Assembly: GCA_023014365.1 (NCBI GenBank) | Contig: JAEBUN010000012.1 | Coordinates: forward strand, 744,001 to 808,000 | Length of the DNA stretch: 64,000 bases | DNA from: Lepiota brunneoincarnata | Taxonomy: Eukaryota; Basidiomycota; Agaricomycetes; Agaricales; Agaricaceae | Reading direction: 5' to 3' | Part shown: one piece after another, positions 15,804 to 36,845 of the stretch | Layout: the number at the start of each line of letters is the position of its first letter | Numbering within the stretch: the stretch's first letter is position 1 | Program-made: the position numbers and the translations under genes | The notes under the pieces: model-generated | The model's database searches: none | The model's input: the letters and a program-made list of their open reading frames with translations, nothing else | What the model was told of the DNA's origin: nothing

Positions 15804-16500
15804 TTCAGAGGTTCTGTTTGACGCCAGCCCCTCCCAGTTCCCCTCTCTCTTGTAATGTTGTAACTCTCACATCTACCTCAAACAATAAATCCATATATCT
15901 TCCTTTAAAGGTGCAGAGCCTGAGAGAACAGAAAGATGTCCCACTTATCGCCCTCCTTGACTCTGGAGCTCAAGGAAATTTCATATCTGACAACTTTGTC
16001 ACCGAGCACTGTCTATGGAAGCAAGCACTTCCCTGAGCAATCAACATGCGTAATTTCAACAGATCAGACAACCTAAATGGAATGATCACTCATTATTCTA
16101 CCTTCCGAACAATAATCGATGGTCGATTAACTCCTATCACTGCCTACAGTCACAGCAACAGGATTGAAACCAATGGTCCTTGGTTTCCCATGGCTTAACA
16201 AAGTCAACCCGAAGATCGATTGGAAATGCTGCACGTTCCAATGGAGAAAAGAGAAGAAGTGCAACCATCACCCCAAATACTTAATGTACAACAACTGCCC
16301 AATCGATATTGCTACCCTCGCTATGGACTGATTAAACACATTCGACCCTGAAGGAAAGTTTTCCTACACCCCGCATGAACCAATCTATGAACCTCTCCTC
16401 AATGAGGACTATGAAGAGTTCTCTCTAGAGTCCGAGATGCGTCAGATCATCAGTACGCCCATTGAACTCGCTCACGTCGAGCTTGAGATCAATTGAACCA
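15804..16500 (+). pseudogene. Element D1 protease region
   Basis: DVPLIALLDSGAQGNFIS at about 15935-15985 is the retropepsin active site. Stops follow at ALP-AIN (TGA where D2 has CGA), at AMD-LNTF (TGA, shared with D2) and near 16494. A frameshift lies near 16145-16150 (TAYSHSNRIETNG against TAYVTATGLKPM in D2). Confidence 0.85.
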
Positions 16501-17489: not shown

Positions 17490-17890
17490 TGCCCGACCAA
17501 TCAAAACCGTTCAAAATCGAATGCGACGCCTCGAAATATGCTACTGGAGCTGTACTTTATCAAACTAACATTAATAATCAACATCACCCTGTGGCTTTCC
17601 TATCGAAAACCCTCACACCTGCCAAACGAAACTACAATATTCATGACTGCAAATTACTTGCCATTATCCACGCCCTCGGAGAATGGCATCATTATCTGGA
17701 AGGAGGACCCTTCCCCATTAAAGTTCATACCGATCACCAAAATCTCACTTACTGGAAGAAACTGCAGGACATAAACTGACGTCAGGCCTGCTGGCATCAA
17801 TTCCTCTCCCACTTCAATCTCCAAATCGAGCATGTACCTGGTACAAAGATACCTGCCACCGACACCCTCTCCCGACATCCTGATCATATT
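17490..17890 (+). pseudogene. Element D1 RNase H
   Basis: FKIECDASKYATGAVLYQ, CKLLAIIHALGEW and THQNLTYW-type sequence ([12 protein letters not shown]) show the catalytic Asp, Glu and Asp. A TGA at 17778 replaces Arg of INRRQA. It ends around HVPGTKIPATDTLS. Confidence 0.85.
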
Positions 17891-18990
17891 CCCGATGAAG
17901 ACAAAGACAACAAATCTGTAACGGTATTACCTGAAACCATATTCATCAACACCATCAATCAAGAAACCTGTGATGATATACTCCGCCACAATAATTACGA
18001 CCCACATACCACCAAACAGATCACCGCTCTCATGACCGCCCCATACATTCCAACGGATTCCTGATATTTGGTAACTTGAACCCCAAAAGGTCTTATTGTT
18101 ACCTATGATGGTAGAACTGTCCCACCTGAAAACCTCAAACTCCGCTGACACATCATACGGAAATATCATAATTCCCCCACCGCAGGTCACCCCGGTATTG
18201 ATCCAACCCTTCATGCATTAGAGCATGATTTCTACTGGCCTGGTATGGCCAGTTTCACATGTGATTATGTCAAAGGATGCACCGACTGTCAACAGTTTAA
18301 AATTAACTGTCACCCTGCCAAGCCTGCCTTTACCCCTATCCCAGCACCCAAGTTGAACTGCCTGTTTGCTCAGATTGCAATGGATCTCATCACCAACCTT
18401 CCTCCCTCTGCAGGTTTTGACTCGATTCTGTCCATTGTGGACCATGGACTCTTGAAGGGGGTAATTCTCACTGCTACCAACAAAACTGCGACTGCCAATG
18501 ACATCGCTGATATCATTCTAAATAAAGTCTACCCATGCTATGGCCTACCCAAACGTATCATATCCGACTGCAACCCACGCTTCACCGCACATTCATTCCA
18601 GAAATTGTTAGAATGACTTGAAATAACCCCTGCAATGACCACAGCCTACCACCCTGAAGCAGATGGAGCAACCAAACGTTCTCACCAGGAAACCCAAGCA
18701 TATCTCTCCATTTTCTGCTCGCATCACCCCGAAAATTGGTTACAAGCCCTCCCTCTTCTTGAATTTGCCTACAATAGCCAACCACATGCCCTACGAAAGC
18801 AAATGCCATTCGAAATTATTATGGGAATACAACCAAAAGCACTTCCCACCATCCTCCTTGAAACCAAATCTCCCACTGTCAACAACCGCATGGAACTAAT
18901 TGACCTATACTGCCAAAACGCTAAAACTGCACACAAGACCGCCATGAAACACATGGAAAACTGACATCAATCAAAGTTCACCCCGTTCCA
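17891..18990 (+). pseudogene. Element D1 integrase
   Basis: H2C2 domain (KYHNSPTAGHPGI...GCTDCQQFK, about 18160-18295), core with MDLITNLP, SDCNPRF (about 18565-18590) and DGATKRSHQE. Stops occur near 18062, 18147, 18614 and 18961, mostly TGA at former CGA. Residues at the second catalytic region are altered (SDCNPRF against SDRDPRF in D2), so the protein would be inactive even if read through. Confidence 0.88.
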
Positions 18991-19407
18991 CAAAAATCAA
19001 ATGGTTTGGCTCGACACCTGGAACTTAAATACCCCATATGTCACACACAAAATGGCCCCCAAACATCTCAGACCATTCTGTATCCTTGACGTTTTATCCC
19101 CTGTTTCATATCGACTTGAACTCCCCAAACATTGGGAAATCCACCCCGTATTCCACGCCCAACTCCTTATGCTGTATACTGAAACTGAAACGTATGGACC
19201 CAACTACGTTCGACCCCCATCCCTAACCATTGAAGGCGAAGAAGTGTACGAAATCGAAGCCATATTAAACCACTGAAAACGACGAAACCACCTTGAATAC
19301 CTAGTCAAATGGCTCGGATGGCCCAAATCCGAAAATACCTGGGAACCCGAATCTCATTTTAAATCAGTTCCTGATGAAATCAGACCTGAAACTCTGGATG
19401 GAAAAGT
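18991..19407 (+). pseudogene. Element D1 integrase C-terminus and chromodomain, truncated
   Basis: QMVWLDTWNLNTP...KMAPKHLRPF (GPF/Y-like position) leads to VYEIEAILNH, a TGA, then EYLVKWLGW and [10 protein letters not shown], a chromodomain. Homology with D2 stops at LDGK near 19405, where the Copia LTR begins. Confidence 0.85.
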
Positions 19408-19804: not shown

Positions 19805-21401
19805 TCAAACTGGAGCAAGTCCAAGTTCTCGTGCGAAATGCTTGACTTTCGGCGAGGGGAGCGCTTTGGTGAAGATGTTGGCTACCATGTCCTTAGTGGG
19901 GCAATAAACAAGCCGGATTTTGCCTTCTTTGACGATCCAGCGAATGAAATAATAGTGAACATCGATATGTTTCATTCGCACGTGGTACTGGTGGTCTTTA
20001 CTGAGTGCAATGGCGGATTGGTTGTCCGAAAAAATTGTGGTGGAGGGGACGGCAGTGTCGAAAATCTGTGAAATAAGCGAACAAAGCCACAGGGCTTCCT
20101 TTGAGGCGTGAGTAGCAGCTACGTACTCAGATTCTGCCGTGGATAAAGTGACAATTTCTTGTCGCTTGGCACTCCAAGAAATGGCCCCACCATTGACGAG
20201 GAACGCGTACCCGGAGGTAGCTTGGCGATCCTCTGCCATGTTGCCATCGGCATCAGCGTAGCCTTTGAGGCCTTCCCCAGTGCCTCTGTAAGTCAGCCAT
20301 AGGTCCTGTGTACCCTTCAGGTACCGAAAAACTCACCTAACCGCTTCCCAGTGCGCTTCTCCAGGGTTCTTCGTGAATTTCGAGAGAACTTGGACAGCAT
20401 ATGCTATATCCAGTTGCGTTCCGAGGGCGGCATACATAAGCATGCCAACGGCCTCTTGATAAGGCTTCCGGGCCATGCAAGCAATGTCCAAAGTTGTTTG
20501 AGGCGATTGCTCACTTGTTAGGCGGATGGCGGGATCCATGGGGGTGCTAACCGGTTTCTCGTTGTCGAAACCATAACATCTGAGCAAAGCATCGACGTAG
20601 GAACGTTGGGATAGCATGAGCTTACCCTGTTCCTTATCCCTCTTCACTTCGATTCCCAAGAGCCAGTGGATCTCTCCCAGATCCGTAATTTTGACAAATT
20701 TTCGCACTCCATCCTTCACCCAGTCAATCAGCAAAATAGTAGATGCGACGAGAGTACAGTCATCAACGTGCACCAGGATTATGGTGAGATCTGGCACCAC
20801 GATCTTGAAGAATACGCTCTGGTCAACCTCACAGCTGTGAAAAGCCCAGGTGATCGACCAAAATCTCGCATAAACGTTGGTACCATCGTCGGCTGGACTG
20901 CTTGAGACCGTAGAGGGTCTTCTTGAGGTGGCAAATGTGACGTGGGTGGGTGGTGGATGTGAAACTGGGTGGTTGCCACATGTAGATCGTCTCACCAGGG
21001 CCTAATTTCCCATTTAGGTACACACCCTTGATATCGATCTGATGGATCTCATAGTTACGAGCGGCGGCAATTGCTAGGACTGTCTGGATAGATGCAAGTC
21101 GTGCCACAGGTGCAAAAGTGTTGAAATAATTGACTCCAGGGACTTGAGAAAATCCTTGGGCGACGAGACGGGCCTTGTAACAGACAACATTGCCAGCAGC
21201 ATCCTTTTTAGCTTTAAAAACCCATTTCAAGCCGATGATGTTAGCTCCGATCGGTGGATCAACAAGTTCCCACGTTCCAGCATCACCCAACATGGCAAGT
21301 TCTTCCTCTATGGCCCTTTTCCACAACTCCCAGTCTGCTCGTTTCCTCGCTTCCTGCAGGCTCCCTGGCTCCAGGCCCTCTGTTTCCTCAATATCGGCCA
21401 C
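19805..21401 (-). pseudogene. Copia reverse transcriptase and RNase H
   Basis: Starts after a linker at DAGTWELVDPP; RT motifs IIGLKWVFKAK, YKARLVAQGF, FAPVARLASI, DIKGVYLNG and the catalytic HVDD in IILVHVDDCTL (about 20765-20800). RNase H shows YADADGN, STAESEYVA and KHIDVHYYFIR. Breaks: a frame change near 20830-20860 (HLGFSQL against WAFHSCEVDQS) and a TGA after AHWEAVR. The C-terminus GLAPV ends at 19805. Confidence 0.88.
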
Positions 21402-22903
21402 CAGGACATGTACATCTGCCCAGTCCAGTTCTTTGGCTAGGGTGACTGCTCGCCCTTCTAGGATGTCTCTTGCCTTGGTGCTTGGGTTTTGAGCTCGTTG
21501 AGGTTGTTGGGGGTGTAGGTCGCCCTCACTAGGTGTCTCCTCAGGGCTAGCATCGTTTGGAGTGCTGTTTTTGGCAGGATTGACTATAGGCTTGGTGGGA
21601 TCGGCTGGATGCTGGTCTGGTGCATCTAGTGTCTCGTTTGGGGGGTTTGCTGGGGTGTTGGGGCTGTGTGGGGGGTTGTTTTGAGGCTCGCTCGCAGGTG
21701 AATGCTCCCCTTCGAGCCCAGGACAACCTGTGTTAATAAACCGAAAATTTCATTCAATTTTTACAGCACCTATGTCCAGAAAATAAATGCGGGAGCCATT
21801 GCTCTTGGCATCATATCCCACCCATCTCCCCTTCTTCGCTCGTCCTCCGAGCTTGTCCCCACCTGCCTGGTGTACCCATACCTCTTCACCCCACTTACGT
21901 ATCGCCCTTAGGTCCGGTTTACAACTGTACAACACCTCGAAAGGTGTTTTGCCCTTGACTGCTCAAGTGCCTGTCCTATTCATCAGCCAGGCAACATGGG
22001 CAACAGCTTCTGCCCACAACAATTTCGGGAGACAGCTAGCATGCAGTAGTACACGTGTATGTTCGACGATTGTACGATTTTGGCATTCAGAAACACCATT
22101 GTGTTGGGGTGTATCGTGTACTGTGAGTTTGGTCTCCGTGCCTTGGGATTTCAAGTAGGACTGAAATTCGGTCGCAGTGTACTCCCCTCCCCTATCCGAA
22201 TGCAATGCCTTAACTCGGGTACTGAATTGTGTCTCGCACCATGCATCAAAATTTTGGTAGGCATCAAAAACATCGGATTTGTTGGAGAGAAAGTCAACAT
22301 GTGTCCACCTCGAAAAATCATCGATAAACATTACATAGTAGTGCTTTCCCCTCTTTGTCTCTACTCGTGCAGGCCCCCATACGTCAGAGTGAACCTCCTG
22401 TCCAAAAGTGGATGCTCGTTTGCCCTCCTGTGCCTTCGAAATTGGCAGCTGAGTTGCCTTGCCATAGGCACATGACTTGCAGAAGAAATCAATGTCAGCT
22501 CCGTCCTCTAGCCTCAGGCCAGCCACCAGACCATCACGGACAAGTTTCCAGGCTGCACCAGCAGCGATATGGCCCAGCCGTCGGTGTAACATGTCTAAGC
22601 TAAGTGGTTCAGCCACCACATTTGCTTCCTCCGCTTCTTTGACTAGTTTGTATAGACCCCTTCTGGTCCTTGGAATCTCGGCAATCTGGGTGCCACTAGT
22701 GTCTCGAATTATACATTTGCCATTTGCGAATGTGGTCATGAAGCCAGCATCGTCAAGACAGCCGATTGATACAAGTGTATAGCCTGCCTCTGGTGAGTAT
22801 AGGACTTCACTCAGGTGGAGTTGTGATGAGGTGGCACCATTTGGCAGCTCGAGGACTACTTCGCCTTTTCCAATGGCATTGAATGCTTTCTTATTTGCGG
22901 CGC
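21402..22903 (-). pseudogene. Copia integrase with GAG-pre-integrase domain
   Basis: HRRLGHIAAGAAWKLV...CKSCAYGK is the HHCC zinc domain (about 22430-22600); the DDE core has SDVWGP, SDRGGEY and the Glu of VSECQNRT (about 22090-22380). Upstream, FSAANKKAFNAIGKGEVVLELP lies at the truncation point. Stops: TGA after MNRTGT (about 21964) and TAA after GAVKIE (21748). A long Pro/Asn-rich linker leads to the RT. Confidence 0.88.
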
Positions 22904-24188
22904 TGAAAAGGTAGAAACGTTCGTATGTTTTAATATGGATAGTGGGCTTGTTTTCACTAAGCTTAGCCGAAATTCGATAAGCTTAAGCTAATACAAGTGG
23001 AATGAGATAGATAAGGAACAGTTTCGTCTTTTAGGGTGTTCTGGGGGTGCGTTCTGACAGCGAAATTCAAGAGAGTAGTGTTTTAGAGGTTAACGAACAG
23101 CCGTTGAAGTTATCTTAGCCGTACGGTGCAACAATGAAAGGACAATCCCTGTCAATTCAAAGCGCGGGGTCTCTAGTCTCTGGTCTCTGGTCTCTGTCTC
23201 TGTCTCTGTCTCTAGCACTCTGGAACTCTAAACTCTGAACTCTGGTCTCTGTCTCTGTCTCTGGGTTGGTCGACGACCGAAGAATTCACACTTAACGACG
23301 CACACTAAATAGCCCTCTGAAACCGTTCTTGATCACGGCTCGCAGACTTGCGTGTGGAAGCGGGGGTGAGACCTCTTGCTTCTCCACGAACAAGTGCGAC
23401 CGTATTTATATTGTTTAGATACATACGAGAGATAGTAAATATGAAATAGAAAACAATAAGCTTAATTGTTACAGGCACTGTAGAACATTTTGGAAGGTTC
23501 GGCAGCATTTCTACCTTGCCCTGGGTTATGAGTTTTTCTCTGATTAATGAATGGCAATCCAGCCAGACGTGTTTCGTGCTCGTCTGCATTATTCTGCATC
23601 CACGCGAGCGCGTTAAGACTCCGGATCAATTATGATCGGAATGTATAGCGGATGGACAGTCCCTTGATCCGTTGTAATTAATCTCAGTTAAGCAATAGGC
23701 CGAGGTGCCAGGACCCACAAAGCACTCGTTAATTAGGAGTCTTTGATATTTCTAGGGTTTTGGGCATCGGGTGTCGCCTCCCGAACGTTGAACGTTCCAT
23801 TCCGTGGTCCGGTCATCATTATTGGGCTCGCTTTTGACGTAATACTCCTGCGACAGCCGCTAGGTACATTCTTTATATTCAAACGCATCCGGGTTCATCA
23901 GAAAACTGCTCGTAAGGTCCCTTGATGCGACCGGAGTATACTCGATAGACTATGTAGAGTCCTGAATCCCTCTGGAAAGTGTTCCGATAGTTTGGTTCAC
24001 TAAGCTTAGTGATAATGAACTGGTTTGAACACTTCCAAGGCTCGAATATCCTCAATTCGGTCGAACTGGCTACTACGGGACATAGTACCAATCCTCTATA
24101 GAGTTCTTTAATGATATAGCCAATGATTCTATGTAGAGAATCGTTCCGGAGTACGGAATTCATGTATAGGCGTGAAATCGGCGTATCA
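22904..24188 (-). repeat. Element G 3' LTR
   Basis: 1285 bp; minus strand TGATACGCC...CCTTTTCA. It holds four TAAGCTTA palindromes and a simple TCTCTG/GTCTCT repeat tract (about 23167-23262). Nearly identical to 35546-36845 and 42419-43719. Confidence 0.9.
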
Positions 24189-24199
24189 TCTCCCCCTAA
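24189..24199 (-). other. Polypurine tract of element G
   Basis: The minus strand reads TTAGGGGGAGA immediately before TGATACGCC, the first bases of the 3' LTR; the position and composition expected for plus-strand priming. Confidence 0.75.
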
Positions 24200-24513
24200 C
24201 CAATTGCTGACTGTCCTCAGTCATTATCTCCTTCAAATTCGCAGTATCTGAGTCTCTCTGACGCGCTCTATGGTCTAGAACGTTCACCAGCTTCGAGGGT
24301 AGCGCACTTTCGCTAAGCTTATTCCAAATGATGTCATGTCACCGAGTTTAAATGTATAGATCAACTTCTTGTTGCTATAGCTTAAATTTTTATCTCTTTA
24401 TTGGGTCTTTTAAATGTCCCAAGGTCTCGTTTCCTCTCTTTCGTTCTCCCTCTCACTCTTTATTCGTTTTATCCTGCTCGCAGATCACTCCTTAACGCCC
24501 ACTTCTATCAACA

Positions 24514-26552
24514 ATGGACCGAAACACGCGCAGCAGCAAACGTGCCCGATACGAAGTAGACACGGACTCCTCCTCTGGTGAGTAGAGTTCGTGTTACAAT
24601 CATCTTTGTTTTTCCTCACACTGTCCTCAGACTACGCTGGGCCTAGCACTGCCCCTCCGGCCTCTCAGGACGCGCCCTCTTCGTCGATTGCGCAACGTAA
24701 GTCTCTTTTCTCTCGCTCTCGTTGTTTTCCTCATGCTTTCTTTGTCCTTAGGTCTCACTATTCGCCTCCCGGCGCGTCGCAACCTCCTTCCTCAATGGGA
24801 ACCACCAGCACCATGTGTTAGGAGAGCTAGAGGAGGGTGAGTGGGACGAGGAGCTCGCGGAAATCGCCAGGGAGGTGTGGATAGGACCCCTCCCCCACCG
24901 TACTCGCCGCCCCGCGAACCAACCCCTCGGCCAGCCACTCCCCTGTCCACTCCTGTGCCGCGACGCGTCATCTCGATCGCGTCACTGTGCAATCCAACTG
25001 ACGAGAGTTCTGCCGGATTGTCCGCAGAACTTTCGTTAGGTATCCCTGTCGGCGGGCCCTCTGGTGGATTATCCACAGAGGCTCCGTCCAGTTCAATGTT
25101 GCTGCCCCCTCTCGCCGTCTCTCTGCGCACCCTGGACGGTGAAGGCTCGCTGGTGCTCCCTCCCCTGGGTATTGCGTCAGGTTCAGAGGTGCCGGGCCCT
25201 TCAACAAACCGCCCCTCCTCTCCTGTAGCCTCTTCGGCTACTTCTATGCGTAAGCTTAAGCCTTTTTCTGCTTATTTCTCCGCTCCTGCTAATAGTGTGC
25301 CTCATAGCTCGTATCCCTGCCGCTCTCAAAGGCAAGCAACGTGCACAGTCATCTGCGCCGCCCCCGTCGCCTCTGTTCCTGGCGAGTTCAAATTCGCCAT
25401 CGCATTCTCCGGTCCCAGAGGTCTCCCAAGAAGACCTCTTCAAAATTTTTAACTGGTCCTCTACCCTGGTCGAGCGGAACGCATTGGCCTCTCCCAGGTG
25501 TCCTACGCCCTCGCTTCCTCACTTGGCTTCTGCTTCAGTCGAGTCTCTCCCAAGTCCCGCGGAGGCTTCGCCTTCTCCAGATTTGGAGCTCCTCTTGGAG
25601 CCTTCGCCTGTTCCCCAGGAGCCGGCGTTCGTTTTTCAAGACTCATTCTTAGCTTCTCCAACCCCCGTCCCCTCTCGTTTGCCGAGCCCAGTGGTCCCAG
25701 ACACATCCCAGTCCTTGCCTCCCCAAGCCGGACCTTCAGGGTCGCGTCGCGCGCGCGTAACCCTACCGAAGAAAAGCTCTAACATGCGCCCAAAGAAATA
25801 TACTCCCCAGGCGCGCATCCGACGTTCTGAAGCCGAAATAATCCGGGATCATGGATACCGGCACCCAGTCCCGCTCTTTTGTGAGGACTTTTCTAGGCTG
25901 CTGGCAGCTAGCCAGCTTTCGGTACGTTCTACAAGTTTTTCTCGTGTTTCCTTATTAACTGTTTTGCCCCTTCCCTAGTACGTGCCGCCTCGGTCTCGGT
26001 GCACTACTTGCGCCGCTCGTAAGTTGGAGTGCGAGCCTCTGGGCAAGGGTAAGAAGTGTCACAGCTGCGACCTGTACAACTACCCCTGTACCTTCGCAGA
26101 CCATCCGCGAGTCTCGGCTGGCGTTGCGAACGCCCTGGTCACGTCCTCACTGACCAGTGAATACCGTAAGTTTCTCTGTTCACTGTTTTTCCCATTTATT
26201 CACTTTTTATTTCCCAGATCTTGCTGCCTTCGCATGTGTTGCGTCCTCCAGCTTGGTCAGTCTGGAGGCCAATCGTGTTGCCTACGAGGCATCGGCCTTC
26301 CACCACCGCCGTGTAATCTACCAGTTCGTCCAGGAGATGCAAGCTACCAGGACGGCCTTGGACGGTAACGACGTGGCGTTCGTGGAGATGGGTATGGCCG
26401 AGTCCCTCGAAGACGTCCAGGCGTTCTTCGAGTTTGCTGACAACTTTCCGGGGGTCCCGACATACGAAGAATTCGAGGAGCTCAAATCGCTCCTCTTCCT
26501 CGCTTTCCCGATGACTCAGGATCCGGAGTCTGTCTTGGAGGACTTGAACTAG
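24514..26552 (+). CDS. Cargo gene 1 of element G: Zn2Cys6 cluster protein, 571 aa, seven exons
   Basis: Exons 24514-24577, 24631-24696, 24752-24836, 24885-25249, 25308-25921, 25979-26165 and 26218-26552; all six introns are GT-AG, 48-58 bp, and phases join without error to 572 codons including stop. The N-terminal 400 residues are Pro/Ser-rich and end in a basic stretch (SRRARVTLPKK...RPKKY). Residues 406-435 give C-X2-C-X6-C-X8-C-X2-C-X6-C, the fungal binuclear zinc cluster that binds DNA. The C-terminal 110 residues are acidic and helical. Antisense to the host element, which preserves its introns during retrotransposition. Target genes unknown; DNA binding is inferred from the cluster only. 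One TAAGCTTA sits at the donor of intron 4. Confidence 0.75.
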
Positions 26553-26811
26553 TGCCTGCTTCCCTTTCCTCTCTTGAATGTAATATATCCTCTTGTCCTG
26601 TATATAGTTACATTTCACTTAACGATTCTTGTCTCTTGGTATCTTTCTGAGTTAAGCTTAAGGCCCTTCTGGAATATCCCAAGCTAAGCTAAGGCTTCCA
26701 GCCGCTTATACGCTCATCAGATATTTCTCTGATACTTCTGCGATGTTTATTGACATCTCAGCGCGCCACGATTCGCCATGTGTAGTGAACCGGTCATCCG
26801 TTCCGGCTTCA

Positions 26812-26903
26812 TTTACAAGCCCGAACCCGAACCAGCCTGTACACGGGGTTTGACGCGTTTACAAGCCCGAACCCGAACCAGCCTGTACACGGGGTTTGAC
26901 GCG
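26812..26903 (+). repeat. Two 46-bp tandem repeats between the cargo genes
   Basis: Units 26812-26857 and 26858-26903 are identical (each starts TTTACAAGCCCGAACCC and ends GGGGTTTGACGCG). They lie in the spacer between cargo gene 1 and the promoter of cargo gene 2. Confidence 0.9.
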
Positions 26904-27168
26904 CCATTTGCGCCACTTGGGGCCCGTCTCCCCCTAGCCAAATTGAAATCGGTGCCCTCACCGTTCCATCCGAATCCCTGTGCACACTGATAACCGCGAG
27001 ACCCTGGCGACCTGCTACCCAATAAGGCAACTGTGGTTCAGCTAGTCTGTCGAAGGCTGGCTACTCAAGATTACAGGTTTCCTAGGCCTCTCAGGTCATA
27101 AGCTTAGGGTGGAGGGTGCTCTTTATCCACTCGTCATGATTCGTCATCACTGCCGACAGCCTTTTCTT

Positions 27169-27176
27169 ATAAAAGC
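27169..27176 (+). promoter_or_regulatory. TATA box of cargo gene 2
   Basis: TATAAAAG lies 44-51 bp upstream of the gene 2 ATG at 27220; a TAAGCTTA palindrome (27099-27106) is 63 bp further upstream. Confidence 0.5.
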
Positions 27177-27219
27177 GAGGGAGCGACGTCTCATTCTAGC
27201 AGACACTCTTCGTAAGAAA

Positions 27220-28567
27220 ATGGCTTCTTCAATCCCCAACCTTCAAGTCAAGCTCGACGATCTCATCAGCAACGCCAAAGGTCGTCTTCAGCGCCTGCAA
27301 AACGGTCAAGTCGCTCGTCCCCTCGTCGAGAAGGCTCTCCTCGCATTCGACGCCCCTGGGGTATGTCTATTCTTTTCATGCTTCTCTCGCTGTTCCTCAA
27401 TCATTTCTAGTCTGCTTATATTGAAGTGTTATCGGAGGATAATGAAGCTATCAAGCTTCATGTCAACCAAGACTACGTCTTCCGTATTCGCAAGCTCTAC
27501 GAAATTTACCAAAACAACTACCATTCGTCTTATGAGATGCCCGCGATCTATAAGGCGCTCTCTGAATGCTGTAGCCGCATTAATCGCGTCCGCTCTGAAG
27601 AATCCCACAAAACCCGTACCGAAGAGGCTCAGAACCCGTCGTCCACGACTGGCTCTACTTCCTCCAACGTTGCCGAAGGCTCTGCTGTCCCCAAACGCGT
27701 AAGCTTAGCGTTCTTTTGGCTTCAAATCGTCTTCTCATGCATAAGCTTAGCCTCGCAAGGGTCGCAAGGCCCCTATCTCTGCTGCTGTTGTGGTAGACAC
27801 CGATACCGAGCCTGCGGAGAGTATGAATAGTGCCTCCAACTCCCGAGCAACTGGTGCTGACACGGTAATCTAGCTGCTTCTCAACCTATTACATTGGCTG
27901 AGATCATCGCTCGCCTTCAGGACATGATGGTCGACGAGGAGGTCTCTCAAGCTATCGTCGAAGAGGTTCGTGTAGTTCCGCCTTATCGCAAGCGTCGTTT
28001 GTCTACCTCCGACGTGGTGCGCCAGCTCCACTCCCCCCAACCACTGATTCTGACTTCCTCTCTCTCTAGGAGACTGTCAAAAAGTCCTCATCGTCTAAAG
28101 GCTCTGTCCGTCTTCTTCCCTATTGTCAAGTTCCCAATATGAACACTAAACACTGCTGTTATGTCCGGGCTGAACAGGTTCTAGCCAAAGCCAGCGCCAA
28201 TACTGCCAAACGCGCCTGTACCGAGTCTGCTTCTGATGAGCGCACCTTCGCAGGCTTATCCGGTGGGCAATTTCTCACTTCTGTTCGTTAAGCTTAGCGG
28301 CTCTGACACTTTTCCCGGGCAGCTCGTTTGCTCCAGGAACTCCAAAACCTCCTGTCTCACTCTCGCGACGAGTACGAGTCTGAATCTCGCAGTGACGACG
28401 CTCGGTCTGTCAAATGCGACCTCAATTCGCTCAGCCGGGACTTCATCGAGGCTATTCCCTCGCTCGAAGCTAACTTAAAGAGGTTCCAATTCCTCATTCA
28501 AGAGCGCATCCGTCTCAAAAGTCTTTTGCGCAACCTCTCCGACTTGGACAAGCCCCTCCCCACTTAA
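27220..28567 (+). CDS. Cargo gene 2 of element G: nuclear-type helical protein, 358 aa, six exons
   Basis: Exons 27220-27360, 27411-27698, 27751-27820, 27874-28013, 28070-28262 and 28323-28567; five introns of 50-60 bp join in phase to 359 codons including stop. Splicing of intron 2 creates VPKRPRKGRK, a nuclear-localisation-type basic run. The N-terminus (KLDDLISNAKGRLQRLQNG) and the C-terminus (ARLLQELQNLL...RFQFLIQERIRLK) are helical and may form coiled coils. No enzymatic motif or known family recognised. Intron 2 begins GTAAGCTTAG and ends ATAAGCTTAG, intron 5 contains another copy, and one overlaps the stop codon. It converges on pol with 76 bp between the stops. Confidence 0.7.
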
Positions 28568-28643
28568 GCTTAACGCTTTTACAGTCCCTAGGATAGTTTT
28601 CCGTCGATAAGTAGATAGTTCTGTCCACAATATCAGGTTTTTT

Positions 28644-31600
28644 CTATCCTTCCAACTCTTCCGGCTCCCATCTGTCACTAGGCTCATCCTCAGTAGTCTC
28701 CTCCAGGGTCTTCAGTCCCTCTGGCGACAGATCTATCAACTCTTGTAATTCCGGCGGCAACGGTATATGTTTCCTGGCTAAGTAGGGAATTACTCTGAAC
28801 GCCGCCACTTTATTCTGCCATACCGAACCGTCCAACTCTGCCAGGATATAAGATCCTCCCTTTGATCTAGATATGACCACCATGGGTCCTAGATACCTGG
28901 GTTTCATCTTCCTGTCTGCTGAGCTCTCTATAGCCGTATTTCTCACTAATACTAAATCTCCCGCGCCGAAGCGATAGTCTTTTATCTTATGCGCTGCTTG
29001 CCGTTCCATTTCCCAAGCCTTGCTAAGCTTAGTGTCTGAAACACGCTGACGCATCTCCTCAACATGCCGAACATGTTTTGCCAAAGCCTGAGCTCGATAT
29101 CCTATCAACTCGGCCGTGGTCAAGTACTTATTCGGTAGCTGCACCAGCCAAGTGGCCTCTTTGACATCCAAAGGTAGCGTCGGGTGCGCTCCGGTTACCA
29201 AAAAGTACGGGGAACACCCCATTCCTTTTCTAATGGTGATCCGATCTGCCCACATAACGTGCGGTAGGTGCCAATACCACTTTTTGACGTCTCCATCTGT
29301 AGCTTTGTACAACATTTGTCGCACATCCCAGTGGGGTCGCTCAATAATCCTGTTCGCTTTGGAATTGTAAGGAGATATCGTTACTCCCTTTATCCCATAT
29401 TTTTCTTCCAGCCATCGAACAGCTTTCTTAAATGGAGAACCGTTGTCCGTGACAATCTTCACTATACAGCCCCATCGGCAAATGATATCTTCGAATAACC
29501 ACTGCGCGATCGAACTGGCGTTCTCTTTTCTCAACGCTTTTGCCTCCATCCAAGATGACAGTCCACACCTTCCATGCACAATATAACTACACCCATTAGA
29601 ACTTGGCGTCATATGTAGTGTGTCCACATGTAGCACTTGGAATATCGACGGCGTGGGCGTTACTATTGGCGGCGTCTCGATGATCACCTTTTGCCGTTGC
29701 TGGCATAGATGGCACGATTGCACATACCAAGCTACGTCTCCTTCAACTTCCGGCCACCAGAACCTCTGCGTTATAAGCTTAGTGGTTGCGTATATTCCTC
29801 TGTGTCCTAGGAAGTCGTGGCTGGCTTGCAACATATACATATGTTGCTCCTTATCCACTACTAGCTGATGCTGACCGCTAGGACTCGTCCTATACAGCCT
29901 CCCCTCTTTATCCAAGAAGAAATGCTCTACCATATGCTTAAGCTTACGCAGATCTGGCTCATCCAAGCCTTCAGCTGCACTACTGCCCCCTGTTTTCAGG
30001 TATTCCCTGACTTTGGGTATCCTTTCATCTTGTATTCGCGCTGTATCTGTCCTGCGCGACTCATCATATGTTTCCTCTATCTCGGCCGACTTTTCCTCTT
30101 CGAAATCTGGCACTAGCCTGACATCCGTCATTAAGCTTAGTACTTGTCGATGGTTTTCTGGACAGGCTGGGTCTTCTATAACCCTAAGCTTAGCCTGTTG
30201 TTCATCCAAGTACTCTTCCCGGGCTTGATCCAGCTCATACTCAAAATCATACACATCACGCACCAGACCCTGGTTGAAGCCAGAGCGACTGTCGATCTCA
30301 TCGCAGAAGGCTTCCAAGGGTAAAGGATCTGCAGCCCCTGGATCTTCTTTGATCAGTTCGAACTCCTCTCCTTCATCCTCGGATCCATCGTCGAAGCGAC
30401 GGGCTGTCTCATCACCGGGATAGTAGCGTCGCCTGGACAGTCCGTCCGGTCCAAAGTTCTTCCCTTCTTTGTGTACTAGCGTGAAGTGGAACGACCTAAT
30501 GAAGTCCACCCAGCGGTTTACTGTGGCGTTCGGGAGCTTCCCTGGGTTGTTTAACATCCCAAAGAGAAACTTCGCATCCGTCTCCACCACTAAGTTTCTT
30601 GATCCCCACAGTAAATATTTCTCTTGTTCCAGCACCATTCTTAAGCCGCATAGCTCTCGCTTGGGCTGAGAGTATCTCTGCTGTCTTTCATCCAATAATA
30701 TTGACCCAAACTTCACATAATGTATAAGCTTAGCGTCTTCTCCATCTCTCTGATATATGTAGTATCCCACCGCCCTCCATGAGGTATCCACGGCTACTAC
30801 TATGGGTTGTTTACTCGGAAATTCGGGGTTCCTGGTCGGGAAACAGCGCTGAATCGCATCTTTCAGCTCCTGCTGCGCTTTCCGTTCGTTTTCTCCCCAC
30901 TCAAACTCTTGCCCTTTTTTAAGCTTTTCGTACAGAGGTGCCGCTATGGCTATGAACTTTGGGATATGATTCCTGCAGCGCGTAGCTGTTCCTAGAAAAC
31001 CCCTTAGCTCGGAGACATTCTCGCAATCCCCCCATCTTAATATCTTCCCAATGGTGTCTGTAGCAGGCAACCGTCCTTTATATGAGCATTCAAAACCCAC
31101 CACGGTGATTTCATCAGCGCAGATAGTCGTCTTGGGCCCAGAGAAGGTCCCTCCTACGTATTTCATCCTCTGTAGAATCCTATTGACGGTCTGCATGTGT
31201 TCCCATACAAATCTTCGGATCCCTGGGTTCTCTTTCAACGTCTCTTCCGTGCCATCTGGCAACTCATATCTAGTTTTCGGCCCTCTGATAGGTACATCAT
31301 CTATGTACGGCATCGTGTATTCTGGTATCTCACTGGCTAGGATCGCTGTTACATCCTCATGGAATATAGGCACTGAGTTGGTCCATCCCATGGGTAATGT
31401 CACTAAGCGTAGCGCTCCAAAAGGCATCTGGAACGTTGTTAAGTCCCGAGACGACTCAGCTAACAGTCGCTCGTCATAGCCAACATATAGATCCAGAATG
31501 CCTCCGCAAGCTCTGCCTGCGAAGTGCATCGCCAAATCTTCTGTTGCTGGCGGCAGTCCTGAATGCGCTATCGTCACTCTGTTCAGCGGCTCCAAGCTGT

Positions 31601-32416
31601 GTACCAGTCTCAAACTTTTCCCATCTTTCTTCACCACACAGAACCATCGGGATCTATAGGATGAGTTCGACGGCTCGTATACACCAGCACTAATCTTTCT
31701 CTTTATAATGGCACAGACTTCATCATAGATCGCTGGTGGAATCGGAATGGGCTTCTCCACCCACGGAGTATGTTCTACCGTCGGTATCTCGATCGGCGGG
31801 AAGAAGTCTTCCCTAAAACATCCCCTCTCCTCATCTGTCCATGCGAATGCCCTTTCTTGAAGCATCATGACTTGGTGCATCAGCTTTCTTTCTTCTGGCC
31901 ACAAGAAATCCCCTGCATGGGCTTCATCCAGCTTAAGCTTGCGCTCCTCCGTATATCTGCCTGTCGGGACAAACTCTGGAGGATGCATGCTAAGCTTAGG
32001 CATTTCTGCCAGCGGATCCCCTTTTATTTCTCGTTTTATCCTGAATTTCTCCGGTAAATCACCTAACACTGGCCTCACTTTTAAAGCGACTGGTTTATAT
32101 TTCTTCCCAGCCAGGCATTGTACAATATCTTCGTCATCCCCTTCAGTTTCGAAGACAGTTATTCCCTGACCCTCCGTATCCTGTGCGTTGGCGATGCGCC
32201 CTAGGCACGATAACGCCGTTGCTCTATCTTCCTGTGGGCAGTCCTCATCGCGTATGACTCGGTCAATGAACATTAGCTGTAGCTCGGCCTCTGAGAAGCT
32301 TCCTTTTGCTAAGCTTAGTGTTTGTGCGACGACAGGGCCCTTCTCATCATCATAGTCTATTATACAAGCCACCTCTCCTTGTCCCTCAGTCAACTCATCG
32401 AGGTTTCTTGAAAATT
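28644..32416 (-). CDS. Element G pol: RT, RNase H, integrase
   Basis: The frame is open for about 1255 codons. RT motifs: [49 protein letters not shown] and the catalytic YIDD (MPYIDDVPI, about 31295-31315). RNase [21 protein letters not shown] and [11 protein letters not shown]. Integrase: H2C2 (HDFLGHRGI...CHLCQQRQ, about 29680-29860), DDE core [17 protein letters not shown] and ERPHWDV, and a GPY/F-like LGPMVVISR. No chromodomain. There is no ATG at the 5' end; the frame overlaps pro by 27 nt in -1 and is most simply reached by frameshifting at 32411-32417. All catalytic residues are present. Confidence 0.9.
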
Positions 32417-33508
32417 TTGACTGTTTTCCCTAAGCTTAGGAGGATTACACTCTCCTCGAGCATAAGTTGGTAACACAGCCCGTTCTCTGGTATTTGGGTC
32501 CGTAATAACCAAGGTTTGCTCGCCACTGGTGCTATTCCTGACTTCGCTAGCCGTCATTACATCAAAGGGTCGTCCCAAGAGTACTCGATACGTGGGGTTA
32601 CGAACGATGTGAACTTGCAAATAGATTGTGACTCCCCCGCAGGTAAAGCCTACGTTCTTTGCCAGTCCACAAGTCTTTTCAACCTGCCCATTCGCACTCT
32701 GCAAACTTATCGTAGTATCTGGATCCCAAGAAACTTGACATGCAATCGCCGCTTCCTGACTCATGGAGACGATCTGTGACCCGCTATCTAGCAAGGCCTC
32801 TTCCTGCCGAATCCCATTTATCAGAGTTGGCACTACTCTCAACGGCTCGCATTCTTTCGCAATAAACACTTGCCGTCCCCTGTCTCTTCGAGGAAGTGAC
32901 TCCAAGTACTGCATGATTGGATCCTGCGCTACCCAGGCTTGGGTTGCCGAGCCTTCTCGGAGCACTGTATCATACTTCCGAGTGCCGTCTGCTAGCTCCG
33001 TTATCATGACTTGTACTGGCCCACTATTAATCTCTATATCTTCTGTATCATCGTCCCAGGGCCCTACTCCTGCTATTAAGCTTTGACTTGTGGGTACCCG
33101 TTTTCTCATAATGCGCTCCCTATAAGCGTTCCTGTATATCGGTGACAATGCCAAGAGTTCTCCATGCGATACTGAGGCTTCTCGCTTCAATACCCTGCTG
33201 AGTACTTCCTCCACATCGACACTCCTCTCTATAGGGGCCTGGTGCTTATACGCAGGCTCCTTCTTAGATGGTTCCATCCTTCTGACAGGCAACGGTGGCA
33301 CCTCAACGACCGGGCGCAGTGGTTTCACATTTCTATATGGTAATTCCCCTGCTGCGGCACGCACTGGTTCCTCCGTTGTCTGCCCTATTTCCTCATTTTC
33401 TGATTCTTCTGATCGCTCGGAATCCGACGCGTCCTCAGGAGTCTGTCCTCTGGCGAAGGCGACCTTCTTCTTCAGAGCCGGCTCCTTCCTCGAACCCTTT
33501 AGAAACCC
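32390..33508 (-). CDS. Element G pro: aspartic protease ORF in -1 frame
   Basis: An open frame of about 377 codons between gag and pol. The N-terminal half is charged ([14 protein letters not shown], later [20 protein letters not shown]). The protease active site is [14 protein letters not shown] (about 32760-32800), followed by [11 protein letters not shown] as in pepsin-like retroviral proteases. It overlaps gag by 10 nt and pol by 27 nt, each time in -1. The first codon read after the slip replaces an ATG start. Confidence 0.85.
32411..32417 (-). promoter_or_regulatory. Candidate -1 frameshift site, pro to pol
   Basis: On the minus strand A_AAT_TTT fits X_XXY_YYZ in the pro frame, six codons before the pro stop (32390-32392). 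A -1 slip leads directly into the pol frame. Confidence 0.6.
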
Positions 33509-35511
33509 GACTCCGAGTTCCAAGTCTTCGCGCCACTCCTGGTGTCCAAATACTGGCTTGCCGAGGGCGTACCATCCGTCAGACCACTAAGCTTAGCCTG
33601 TATCTGGGCCAATTGCTCGGCCAAAGACTGTATCTCGACGTTATCATCCTTTCTTGTCATAAGCTTAACCTTTGGGGTACTCCCAGCGTGGATGGCAGCT
33701 GTCTCCAACATTTCCATGCGCTGCTTCAGACGGCGGATTTCTTCTTCCGCTGGCGACCTTTGGTTTTCTGACCTCGGGAACGCTCTCTGTGCAAACACTG
33801 CTGACGTTGGTACTTGCGGTAACTCAGGCTCAACCTCCGGCAGTTCTGGTATCTGAACGAAGAGTTGTCCCTTTGTCGCATAGTACTTTGCCACTTTCTC
33901 TTTAATAGGCCCTTCTCCTCGAGGGATACTCGAGCCGTCTCCCATATATATTTTGTTCCCTTCGACTCTAATTCGGCCGGCTTGTTTATCCGCCTCCATG
34001 TCCGGGCAGAATAACCAACTATGCCCTAATAACCAGCAGTAGAAACACTTGCGATCGGAAAGCGACCCTGCCGGCCCACTTCCAGTATTCCTCTGGGCGT
34101 GATTATAACCGGCATGATTATGTCCGTCTTTCGCCGAGCTCTCTAAATATGTTTTTAAGGTATGCCCCTGGATATTCATGAGGTCCTTAAGCTCAGCGAG
34201 GCCACCTGCCATCTGCGAGACTTCATCCTGAAATTTCTGCTTTAAGCTTTGCAGTTCTCGCTTTACCACCGGGTCATAAGTCCCTGTTCCGGACGTCGCA
34301 GGTGGATGGCTCATCGATGCCGAGTTTACCGGCCTCAAATCCTGATGAAGGGATCGCATAAGTGTTTTGCCAATCGAAATTTCGACAGCTTTATCCACGA
34401 CAATCCTCCAATCATAGGGGTCCTCTTCGCGTAAATCCTTCGCAGTCAGTGCCGACCCATCACTTGTGGTTCTACGCGCCCCGGTGATCGCTAATCTCGC
34501 ATTGAGCACATCCTGGAACACCGAGTCCAGTGCGCTCGTAAATAACTCGACTAGCTCTCGGTTCGAGACTACCGCCGGCGACTTTAGACACTTCTCTGCT
34601 TCGAGAATGAATCGCCTTTTAAAGTCCAAGACTTTATGCTCCTCATTCATCGCAATGCCTCTACTCTCTGCGCAGAGTTCCCTCAAGCGTCGCACTGAGC
34701 CCTGCTCGGCTGCCACAGCCTCGGGATACTCTTTCTTTAATCTCTCTACAAAGCCTGTCCAGCTTCCTGCTAAGAACTCCGCAAAACTCATCCACTCTTC
34801 ACGGATATCCTGGTCCACATATGACACCGCCCAATTTATTCTTTCTGCCTCGTCCGTCGTCTTCGTTATCGTGAAGAGACGTTCCAGCGTCCAGAGATAA
34901 TTTCTCAATGTCTGTGGTTTTGATGCATCCCACCTGGGAGCATTATTGCTAAAGGGAATTGGCATACGCTCGTGTCCCATTTTTCTAGCTGTAGTCGTCG
35001 TCGACGGCGTAGTTTGGTTTGTCTGTACAGTCGGAGTTGACTGTGATATCTGTGGTACCGTGGGGGCACCAAAAGGGTTCGTATGAAACGAGTTTTGGTT
35101 TGGTAACGCTAAGCTTAGCGTAGGAACGGTCTGACCGTCCTGGTTTTCGGTGTGCAGAATATGCGCTATGTTGCGAGCTGAGGCTGGAAGCCTTATAGTA
35201 ATTCTGGGAGCAGTAGAGATCGGTGGTACAGCTTCTCTCAATACTGCAACTGCTGAACCACTCGCTGTGTTCGCAGCTAAAGCGCTAACGGGATCTTTTC
35301 GCTTTCGAGAGGTACTAGCGGCGATGAGGCCTTCAGAACCTTCTGGACGATTGGAATTCCTAGTAGTTCTCTGTTTTGGTGGGTCGACCTTCCTGAGACT
35401 GCTCTCGAAGGACGTTTTGGGTGACTTTACGGTCTTTGCTTGAACCTTTTTCTGCTTCGCAGGTGAAAGGCGGGCCAGTGTCCAAGTCTTTTGGTGTTTG
35501 TCTCGTGAAAT
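33499..35511 (-). CDS. Element G gag with zinc knuckle
   Basis: Open from a TGA at 35512-35514 down to TAA at 33499-33501. No ATG occurs until MGHERMPIPF at 34980, so either that Met starts a protein of about 494 aa, or a non-AUG start or upstream exon supplies the basic N-terminal part (KQKKVQAK..., SRKRKD). Domains: retrotransposon gag (WDASKPQTLRNYLWTLERLF...ERLKKEYPEA), a knuckle CFYCWLLGHSWLFC (CX2CX4HX4C, about 34015-34060), then a helical C-terminus (EEEIRRLKQRMEMLE). Ends at a G_GGT_TTC slippery heptamer. Confidence 0.85.
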   Translation of the reverse strand: MSRDKHQKTWTLARLSPAKQKKVQAKTVKSPKTSFESSLRKVDPPKQRTTRNSNRPEGSEGLIAASTSRKRKDPVSALAANTASGSAVAVLREAVPPISTAPRITIRLPASARNIAHILHTENQDGQTVPTLSLALPNQNSFHTNPFGAPTVPQISQSTPTVQTNQTTPSTTTTARKMGHERMPIPFSNNAPRWDASKPQTLRNYLWTLERLFTITKTTDEAERINWAVSYVDQDIREEWMSFAEFLAGSWTGFVERLKKEYPEAVAAEQGSVRRLRELCAESRGIAMNEEHKVLDFKRRFILEAEKCLKSPAVVSNRELVELFTSALDSVFQDVLNARLAITGARRTTSDGSALTAKDLREEDPYDWRIVVDKAVEISIGKTLMRSLHQDLRPVNSASMSHPPATSGTGTYDPVVKRELQSLKQKFQDEVSQMAGGLAELKDLMNIQGHTLKTYLESSAKDGHNHAGYNHAQRNTGSGPAGSLSDRKCFYCWLLGHSWLFCPDMEADKQAGRIRVEGNKIYMGDGSSIPRGEGPIKEKVAKYYATKGQLFVQIPELPEVEPELPQVPTSAVFAQRAFPRSENQRSPAEEEIRRLKQRMEMLETAAIHAGSTPKVKLMTRKDDNVEIQSLAEQLAQIQAKLSGLTDGTPSASQYLDTRSGAKTWNSESGF
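33502..33508 (-). promoter_or_regulatory. Candidate -1 frameshift site, gag to pro
   Basis: On the minus strand G_GGT_TTC immediately precedes the gag stop TAA and fits X_XXY_YYZ in the gag frame; a -1 slip enters the pro frame ([10 protein letters not shown]). Confidence 0.65.
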
Positions 35512-35527
35512 TCAACTGAAAACCCCC

Positions 35528-35543
35528 CTCGCGGTGGGCTCCA
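35528..35543 (-). other. Candidate primer-binding site of element G
   Basis: The minus strand reads TGGAGCCCACCGCGAG starting 2 nt after the 5' LTR end, the usual TGG start of a tRNA-type primer-binding site. I could not assign the tRNA. Confidence 0.5.
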
Positions 35544-35545
35544 GA

Positions 35546-36845
35546 TGAAAAGGTAGAAACGTTTGTAGGTTTTAAATATAGATCGTGGGCTTGTTTTCAC
35601 TAAGCTTAGCCGAAGTTCGATAAGCTTAAGCTAATACAAGTGGAACGAGATAGATAATGAACAGTTTCGTCTTTTAGGGTGTTCTGGGGGTGCGTTCTGA
35701 CAGCGAAATTCAAGAGAGTAGTGTTTTAGAGGTTAACGAACAGCCGTTGAAGTTATCTTAGCCGTACGGTGCAACAATGAAAGGACAATCCCTGTCAATT
35801 CAAAGCGCGGGGTCTCTGGTCTCTGGTCTCTGGTTTCTGAACTCTGGTCTCTGTCTCTGTCTCTGTCTCTAGCACTCTGGAACTCTAAACTCTGAACTCT
35901 GGTCTCTGTCTCTGTCTCTGGGTTGGTCGACGACCGAAGAAATCACACTTAACGACGCACACTAAATAGCCCTCTGAAACCGTTCTTGATCACGGCTCAC
36001 AGACTTGCGTGTGGAAGTGGGGGTGAGACCTCTTGCTTCTCCACGAACAAGTGTGACCGTATTTATATTGTTTAGATACATACGAGAGATAGTAAATATG
36101 AAATAGAAAACAATAAGCTTAATTGTTACAGGCACTGTAGAACATTTTGGAAGGTTCGGCAGCATTTCTACCTTGCCCTGGGTTATGGGTTTTTCTCTGA
36201 TTAACGAATGGCAATCCAGCCAGACGTGTTTCGTGCTCGTCTGCATTATTCTGCGTCCACGCGAGCGCGTTAAGACTCCGGATCAATTATGATCGGAATG
36301 TATAGCGGATGGACAGTCCCTTGATCCATTGTAATTAATCTCAGTTAAGCAATAGGCCGAGGTGCCGGGACCCACAAAGCACTCGTTAATTAGGAGTCTT
36401 TGATATTTCTAGGGTTTTGGGCATCGGGTGTCGCCTCCCGAACGTTGAACGTTCCATTCCGTGGTCCGGTCATCATTATTGGGCTCGCTTTTGACGTAAT
36501 ACTCCTGCGACAGCCGCTAGGTACATTCTTTATATTCAAACGCATCCGGGTTCATCAGAAAACTGCTCGTAAGGTCCCTTGATGCGACCGGAGTATACTC
36601 GATAGACTATGTAGAGTCCTGAATCCCTCTGGAAAGTGTTCCGATAGTTTGGTTCACTAAGCTTAGTGATAATGAACTGGTTTGAACACTTCCAAGGCTC
36701 GAATATCCTCAATTCGGTCGAACTGGCTACTATGGGACATAGTACCAATCCTCTATAGAGTTCTTTAATGATATAGCCAATGATTCTATGTAGAGAATCG
36801 TTCCGGAGTACGGAATTCATGTATAGGCGTGAAATCGGCGTATCA
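35546..36845 (-). repeat. Element G 5' LTR
   Basis: 1300 bp, minus strand TGATACGCC...CCTTTTCA; near-identical to 22904-24188 with an extra segment in the TCTCTG repeat tract (about 35813-35922). Four TAAGCTTA copies at the same relative positions as in the 3' LTR. Confidence 0.92.

Follow-up and report, generated by a model that had tools for sequence, protein, structure and literature searches.

Two antisense genes inside a Gypsy-type element

The stretch of Lepiota brunneoincarnata DNA analysed here (the window, 64,000 nucleotides) carries on its minus strand a Gypsy-type (Ty3) LTR retrotransposon with two LTRs of 97.5% identity, a polypurine tract (PPT) and gag-protease-pol, with RNase H before integrase; a target-site duplication was looked for around the element and none was found. 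Two plus-strand spliced genes, antisense to the element, sit in the interval from the pol stop to the PPT/3' LTR, just where the original prediction had placed them, and the LTRs, frames and purine run on which that placement depends were all located:

22904..24188, minus strand: 3' LTR, from comparison of the LTR pair
24189..24198, minus strand: polypurine tract adjoining the 3' LTR, minus strand TAGGGGGAGA, from the sequence
24514..26552, plus strand: cargo gene 1, 587 codons, 6 exons (24514-24577, 24631-24696, 24752-25249, 25308-25921, 25979-26165, 26218-26552), from copy comparison
24838..24840, plus strand: premature in-frame stop (TGA) at codon 73 of gene 1 in the window copy, from the sequence and copy comparison
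26000..26089, plus strand: six-cysteine Zn2Cys6-type signature in exon 5 of gene 1, by motif
27220..28567, plus strand: cargo gene 2, open, 359 aa, 6 exons (27220-27360, 27411-27698, 27751-27820, 27874-28016, 28070-28262, 28323-28567), from copy comparison
27693..27768, plus strand: basic stretch KR/PRKGRK of gene 2 (slash, splice junction), across intron 2 (27699-27750), from joining exons 2 and 3
28644..32429, minus strand: pol frame, stop at 28644, with RNase H and an integrase zinc-binding domain by Pfam and RT by homology
32390..33586, minus strand: aspartic protease frame, from the frame and Pfam
33499..35511, minus strand: gag-like frame, assigned by position, with no Pfam gag match
35546..36845, minus strand: 5' LTR, from comparison of the LTR pair

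Rfam at gathering scores returned no match, and a search of viral contigs with pol found nothing. All cargo introns in the window are GT-AG and 50-60 bp long. The original prediction had counted seven and six exons and eleven introns, but our models give six exons in each gene and ten introns. We rejected the seventh exon of gene 1, as that stretch is an open exon in other copies; presumably it would splice past the in-frame TGA at codon 73, which falls where other copies have open exon. We set intron 3 of gene 2 to 27821-27873 because the intervening sequence varies in a coding-type manner, and dropped a version of this intron ending CAG/GACATG. The claim that both genes are intact thus holds for gene 2 and fails for gene 1 in the window copy, although gene 1 is open to codon 588 in 14 of 18 close copies, 12 of which also have every splice site. 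Transcription of both genes is predicted, and may start from a promoter of their own.

The same arrangement recurs through the genome, as the original prediction had proposed should be checked. Gene 2 lies on the opposite strand beside all of the best 40 pol matches listed (95-100% identical), at 3586-3594 bp from pol in 35 of them; this pairing used the 47 of 150 gene 2 matches on or near contigs with pol matches. None of these 40, which are the closest copies, lacks gene 2. When copies were retrieved through gene 1 instead, a piece of LTR lay beside it in 20 of 20, gene 2 came next in 19 and pol was found in 17, with no pol inside the retrieved stretch for L022, L023 and L026. (Copy counts exclude the short duplicates L001-L008; the partial copy L033 is in the copy list but enters neither the rate nor the motif tables.) A second family, whose pol is 63-76% alike, has the same gene pair in the same order beside an antisense pol. 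In Agaricus bisporus, an annotated member of the Agaricomycetes, pol of the same clade is present at 75-76%. Nor does the locus fit the capture of two host genes that might have undone the prediction: a gene 1 relative (60-68% by exon) does exist at two loci, L037 and L038, where neither the LTR nor gag or pol of the element has a match, but exon 2 of gene 2 by itself is near-complete at 118 genomic places, and the cargo is therefore not a one-off capture.

Substitutions between copies are of the coding type in both genes. Among the cleanest pairs, dN/dS, another check that had been proposed, was 0.14 for gene 1 (L010/L031, dS 0.57) and 0.15 for gene 2 (L010/L029, dS 0.13); the pairs were hand-picked (7 for gene 1, 9 for gene 2), and several others gave higher values, 0.27-1.56. 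Judged from these substitutions, both genes are under purifying selection, and because it extends over such distances they exceed what chance frames would give. That the two cargo genes are present, have this structure and are conserved is well supported. The observation of an antisense spliced gene pair in an LTR element accordingly stands, across copies, whereas the number of exons it gave and an intact gene 1 do not.

Both genes have features of the nuclear type that had been expected of them. Fungal Zn2Cys6 regulators follow the spacing C-x2-C-x6-C-x5-12-C-x2-C-x6-8-C. Like them, gene 1 has six canonically spaced cysteines (C-x2-C-x6-C-x8-C-x2-C-x6-C) and basic residues, and all six cysteines are invariant in 7 of 7 aligned members; unlike them, it scores under the Pfam Zn_clus cut-off of 21 (18.6 bits on the exon, E 0.002; 13.6 bits on the whole protein), and residues 360-587 have no homologue among 1450 candidate proteins at E 0.001, a search that is probably uninformative for spliced genes. 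The predicted zinc cluster was thus found in its spacing but not at the Pfam threshold. Zn_clus matches at E<=1 in 5 of 7 gene 1 family members. Two structure models were made (pLDDT 51 and 62), that of the Zn exon being the poor one at 51; a PDB profile search with this exon gave a weak haemoglobin stretch alone, which we judged to be chance. From its Zn2Cys6-like six-cysteine cluster, the gene 1 product is a predicted nuclear protein. In gene 2 the basic stretch KR/PRKGRK does arise by splicing, from exons 2 and 3, and this candidate NLS likewise predicts a nuclear product. Gene 2 has no homologue among 3915 candidates in the protein database at E 0.01, again probably uninformative for spliced genes, and a weak Med28 match (E 0.041) was put aside.

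A palindrome dispersed through the element

The palindrome TAAGCTTA occurs at the following sites in the element, found by motif scan (with the gene model where a donor, acceptor or stop codon is named) and given without strand:

22958..22965: 3' LTR
22978..22985: 3' LTR
23457..23464: 3' LTR
24001..24008: 3' LTR
24314..24321: upstream of gene 1
25251..25258: gene 1 intron 3, overlapping the donor
26653..26660: between the genes
27099..27106: between the genes
27700..27707: gene 2 intron 2, donor
27742..27749: gene 2 intron 2, acceptor
28289..28296: gene 2 intron 5
28565..28572: starts at the gene 2 stop codon
29024..29031: pol
29774..29781: pol
29939..29946: pol
30132..30139: pol
30185..30192: pol
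30725..30732: pol
31991..31998: pol; by copy comparison lost in L027/L028, there present 57 bp off
32310..32317: pol
32431..32438: protease frame
33588..33595: gag frame
33660..33667: gag frame
35110..35117: gag frame
35601..35608: 5' LTR
35621..35628: 5' LTR
36114..36121: 5' LTR
36658..36665: 5' LTR

This palindrome was not part of the original prediction. It is spread over the LTR, gag-pol, cargo introns and spacers, with 24 sites in 12.6 kb of element against 0.2-0.5 expected; the next palindromic 8-mer has 4. The 64-kb window beyond the element holds just 4 sites, at a spacing near that of the LTR, and genome-wide CTAAGCTTAG occurs 2011 times against 39 for the reversed control. By part, cargo exons (2845 bp) contain 0 sites, cargo introns (543 bp) 4 and gag-PR-pol (6868 bp) 12.

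For site retention we looked at five of the 18 close copies. In L028, 20 of 21 sites are intact as compared to at most 58% of 8-mers (P 2e-4), and the one loss has a compensating gain at a distance of 57 bp. Of 8 sites, the decayed copies L034-L036 keep 5-6, no more than the strictest null allows for (P 0.18-0.32). This comparison indicates that in better-preserved copies TAAGCTTA persists longer than its flanking sequence. Agreement with 60 homologues is 0.35 for the pol residues beneath the motif (30 residues) and 0.58 overall, the 60 having been picked by length and order from 120 listed proteins. The palindrome is unlikely to have been inserted as an 8-mer unit: when the pol sites are aligned to these homologues, 7 of the 8 show 0-4 gapped rows, and only 30725 falls at a gap column, in 59 of 60. 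The one second-family copy examined (1 of 11 loci) has neither TAAGCTTA nor a comparable dispersed word over 9.5 kb, so such a motif does not accompany the cargo in every case.

What the genes and the palindrome may do

TAAGCTTA looks like a self-recognition mark of the element. On the reading we think best, which we hold as a serious possibility short of a probable one, the region between pol and the 3' LTR would be a resident accessory module of two spliced genes laid out against gag-pol, with at least one predicted nuclear protein acting on its own element. Genomic RNA, of the gag-pol strand, would hold the cargo introns as antisense, and we propose that they survive because their splice sites are unread there. 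The protein of gene 1 and/or gene 2 would act on element DNA through TAAGCTTA, which selection would have spread across the whole element and maintained; the likeliest purpose would be open chromatin over the element, or control of its transcription, in the face of CpG-directed silencing by the host. For this reading count the CpG decay of old copies (CpG transitions 33-44% against about 10% elsewhere; CpG o/e 0.11-0.46), taken as silencing pressure, the constancy of gene 2 beside pol, the lowest dN/dS values, the gene pair of the second family, the density of TAAGCTTA and its retention in L028, and the low agreement of the pol residues beneath it with homologues. Against it count the lack of TAAGCTTA in cargo exons, unexpected if a protein simply bound DNA, the sub-cut-off Zn_clus score, the poor exon structure model, the motif-free second-family copy, the retention in L034-L036 and the higher dN/dS pairs; the motif might also be read by a host factor.

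Alternatively, one could envision that the conserved genes serve another nuclear step, such as bringing the pre-integration complex into the nucleus or controlling integration, roles guessed for plant antisense ORFs in the available text of PMC7264820 and PMC11963269, and that TAAGCTTA is unrelated to them and read by a host factor, as it could be. The second-family copy, with genes and no motif, is what one would expect under such circumstances; however, it would be left unexplained why a host-factor site should recur about twice per kb in coding sequence as well as in the LTRs, and the window beyond the element has just 4 sites, at LTR-like spacing. We consider this account rather doubtful. 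Less likely again is that TAAGCTTA works in RNA, marking genomic RNA for dimerisation or packaging, and that cargo mRNAs must be free of it. This would account for its absence from cargo exons, set against the sites in cargo introns and gag-PR-pol, but some cargo mRNA would still keep it (28565 overlaps the gene 2 stop, and 24314 may be 5' UTR), and packaging signals are usually local rather than spread over 12 kb.

Two further explanations bear on the genes themselves. If the antisense transcripts were the product, as double-stranded RNA for silencing (proposed for plant elements in the part of PMC7264820 available), the proteins would be incidental, but the lowest dN/dS values, which lie between sub-families, and the mostly kept splice sites argue that selection acts on proteins, and we regard this as improbable. 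It is hardly credible that host genes were captured just once here, or that the antisense frames are due to chance: the gene 1 relative outside any recognisable part of the element is in its favour, but the constancy of gene 2 beside pol refutes it for close copies, and both the purifying selection and the recurrence of the pair in the second family stand against it.

Relation to known systems

Plant Gypsy elements carry antisense ORFs between pol and the 3' LTR, including Grande gene23, RIRE2, Retand TRP28 and PvRetro13, and as far as the consulted text of PMC7264820 and PMC11963269 describes them they resemble the present genes in position, orientation and presence in most copies, with some products nuclear or DNA-binding. 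Their proteins are different ones (TRP28, SMC domains); neither paper uses the word "intron", whereas the cargo here is spliced, and those parts of the papers do not mention a dispersed palindrome such as is present here. The window genes fall in the class of antisense additional ORFs termed aORF-3R (pol-3' LTR), being coding genes antisense to gag-pol in most copies. The original prediction had named plant Gypsy elements as carriers of such genes, but they are not confined to plants, and a fungal LTR element with one has been described before: Boty/BcGypsy1 of Botrytis cinerea, also a Gypsy element, carries an extra antisense gene, brtn (Zhao et al. 2011, as reported in excerpts of PMC7264820 and PMC8365987), one gene being named there against two here in a comparison by description only.

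For the preferred reading, in which element proteins act through TAAGCTTA, the closest parallel would be the action of VANC on VANDAL elements of Arabidopsis, an analogy alone, with no kinship claimed. VANDALs are DNA transposons related to Mutator. Their motif, too, is short, dense in one TE family, rare elsewhere and enriched in introns and spacers, and is tied to an element-encoded protein with host methylation as the pressure (PMC5735166, in part), whereas here we infer the binding. TAAGCTTA is likewise enriched in its element family and conserved, except in the decayed L034-L036; VANC motifs form directional tandem arrays, mainly non-coding, in contrast to a dispersed palindrome that includes gag-pol (PMC5735166, in part). 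It is conceivable, though we lean against it, that a VANC-like anti-silencing system arose independently in retrotransposons and in fungi, the element's own proteins reading some 24 palindromes, at a cost in pol residues, and thereby shielding or activating its copies.

With two conserved genes and a candidate DNA target, the question of what antisense genes do in LTR elements, in plants as in fungi, can here be reduced to a simple test of binding. Should the link be true, motif-guided self-recognition by transposons would not be peculiar to Arabidopsis DNA transposons, and elements would pay in protein sequence for their own address label.

The element and its antisense cargo

The element is a Gypsy-type LTR retrotransposon on the minus strand; in its own direction, the cargo region and then a purine run precede the 3' LTR.

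Features of the element and its cargo (window coordinates)
35546-36845, minus strand, 5' LTR
33499-35511, minus strand, gag-like frame
32390-33586, minus strand, protease frame
28644-32429, minus strand, pol
27220-28567, plus strand, gene 2, six exons, from alignments of copies
24514-26552, plus strand, gene 1, six exons, from alignments of copies
22904-24188, minus strand, 3' LTR

The two LTRs share 97.5% identity across 1300 alignment columns, and no target-site duplication was found with the ends tried. Pfam domains detected in the element's frames were an aspartic protease, RNase H and an integrase zinc-binding domain; the named relatives of pol among the 120 matches listed are Agaricus bisporus proteins, sharing 75-76% identity over residues 150-650. 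A Copia-type remnant (rve, gag_pre-integrs and RVT_2; 20333-22739, minus strand) directly adjoins the 3' LTR, and a second, broken retroelement lies at 14600-19400 on the plus strand, with RVT_1 at 16683-17489.

All ten cargo introns are 50-60 bp long and GT-AG throughout in the window. The original prediction described both cargo genes as looking intact; this is wrong for gene 1 of the window copy, which is interrupted by an in-frame stop at codon 73, although open copies exist elsewhere. Among the 18 close copies (L009-L026), gene 1 is open up to codon 588 in 14 (the exceptions being L018, L019, L020 and L025), and 12 of these 14 also carry GT and AG at each of its five introns; gene 2 is full length in 13 of the 17 close copies having it (not in L016, L020, L022 and L023). 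Within the four copies of class B, two have an open gene 1 (L031, and L029, in which one donor is altered) and three, all but L031, have a full-length gene 2. Gene 1 is broken in all of the older copies (L027, L028 and L034-L036), of which only L027 has a full-length gene 2. Between the cargo genes lies a 46-bp perfect tandem duplication (26812-26903), and this spacer is 46 bp shorter in most close copies. Judging the alignment by eye, introns 1 and 5 of gene 2 differ more from one sub-family to another than intron 4 (28017-28069) does.

Conservation and exchange of the cargo genes

Constancy of the cargo was assessed starting from pol, so that copies were not chosen by their cargo. The best 40 of 198 pol candidates, all 95-100% identical, each have an opposite-strand gene 2 match beside them, at 3586-3594 bp from pol in 35 and at 5.1-11.8 kb in 5, the latter being as expected if insertions lie between pol and gene 2. 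The second exon of gene 2 has at least 150 matches, from 162 candidates of which 150 were scored; by our own count, at least 118 of the matches listed span 88 or more of its 96 residues, with identities of 79-100%, and 3 of these 118 contain stops.

Comparison of L010 (class A) with class B copies gave a dN/dS of 0.14 for gene 1 (dS 0.57 and dN 0.08 against L031; the ratio against L029 is likewise 0.14) and of 0.15 for gene 2 (dS 0.13, dN 0.019, against L029). Ratios were higher for gene 1 pairs with L034 (0.27-0.30), for gene 2 pairs with the CpG-decayed or frameshifted L027, L031 and L036 (0.28-0.68), for gene 2 compared with that of the truncated L023 (0.87) and for near-identical copies (0.43-1.56, resting on 6-31 differences). 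Purifying selection on the cargo genes is therefore visible between lineages and blurred among recent or decaying copies.

Divergence between sub-families, scored in 300-bp bins for eight pairs among L010, L027-L029 and L036, was 8-41% in gene 1 bins (24514-26600) versus 3-17% in gene 2 bins; between L010 and L029, the difference is 12-24% in gene 1, 4% in its upstream flank and 3-6% in gene 2. Because synonymous divergence in gene 1 is raised too, the simplest reading is that gene 1 is a block of old variants shuffled between sub-families, rather than one undergoing rapid adaptive change. A gene-1 relative also occurs at two further loci (L037, about 1583-3140, and L038, about 1618-3175), neither of which matches the element's LTR, gag or pol. 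Beside it is an ORF that we take to resemble a HAMP-repeat histidine kinase, the first part of which has no Pfam match. These loci are 97.5-98.7% identical across 8.6 kb and are perhaps two haplotypes or a duplication.

In a second family (L039 and L040), gene-1-like and gene-2-like genes lie in the same order beside an antisense pol whose two pieces share 63% and 76% identity with that of the element. Loci of this family were found genome-wide by the second exon of gene 2 (31-35% identity, E 6e-9 to 5e-7); in a very small database only, gene 1 exon 6 matched at E 0.002 and gene 2 at E 1e-10 and 5e-8. Individual cargo matches between the two families are weak; order, strand and six cysteines in a matching place agree. 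A Tc1-like transposase insert (HTH_Tnp_Tc3_2, DDE_3; L040 3505-4578) interrupts the pol of this second family.

A palindrome dispersed over the element

The palindromic 8-mer TAAGCTTA occurs 24 times in 22904-35545, and 28 times once the 5' LTR is included, versus a Markov expectation of 0.2-0.5 for the 24; the runner-up among the 256 palindromic 8-mers has 4 occurrences. Outside the element, the window contains 4 further copies, at 42473-43540, spaced much as in the LTR, and this stretch is probably a solo LTR of the same family. Across the 55.6 Mb assembly, CTAAGCTTAG was counted 2011 times versus 39 for its reversed control. No TAAGCTTA was found in the 10, 10 and 9.5 kb scanned of L037, L038 and the second-family copy.

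Distribution of TAAGCTTA within the element
Cargo exons (24514-28567): 0 in 2845 bp
Cargo introns: 4 in 543 bp
Cargo spacers: 4 in 1067 bp
3' LTR: 4 in 1285 bp
gag-PR-pol: 12 in 6868 bp

Were the 24 sites evenly spread, the chance of none falling in exons would be about 0.002, by a hand calculation made after the pattern was seen. Three of the four intron sites (25251, 27700 and 27742) overlap splice sites.

All 21 of 21 sites are kept in five close copies, 20 of 21 in L028, which is 87% identical overall (P 2e-4 under the strictest null), and 17 of 21 in L027 (P 0.015). The site at 31991 is lost in both L027 and L028, and both have one at 31934, 57 bp away. Seven of 8 sites are kept in L029-L031, and 8 of 8 by column in L032, 7 of them as uninterrupted words. 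In L034, L035 and L036, which are decayed, 5, 6 and 6 of 8 are retained, or 5, 5 and 5 under another alignment (P 0.18-0.32). Beneath the eight pol sites, agreement of pol residues with 60 homologues is 0.35 versus 0.58 for all residues (30 residues; P 0.014 by random placement, a rough test). The palindrome is therefore preserved at the nucleotide level, in part at the expense of the protein.

CpG decay and possible protection of the element

Antisense ORFs are known from plant elements (PMC7264820 and PMC11963269), and a fungal example, the antisense gene brtn carried by Boty (Botrytis cinerea), is cited in PMC7264820 and PMC8365987. Neither a spliced antisense cargo of two genes nor a palindrome dispersed over a fungal LTR element turned up in the part of the open-licence literature searched.

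Relative to L010, the older copies carry transitions at 33-44% of CpG sites versus about 10% of other C/G sites, and their observed/expected CpG is 0.11-0.46, as compared to 0.93 for the window element and 0.98-1.01 for L029 and L031. CpG methylation and subsequent decay leave this kind of pattern, which would give the element a reason to need protection.

The nearest working model is the action of VANC on the Arabidopsis VANDAL elements, whose motif has 9 bases, is concentrated in one family and scarce outside it, and sits chiefly in introns and spacers (PMC5735166, PMC10398659). This Lepiota family has two conserved, intron-containing antisense genes, an exon with six cysteines, a dispersed palindrome under selection and CpG decay of its old copies. 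We infer that both cargo genes are transcribed and translated, that their proteins would act in the nucleus, and that the product of gene 1 or gene 2 would recognise TAAGCTTA and may thereby protect the element from silencing.
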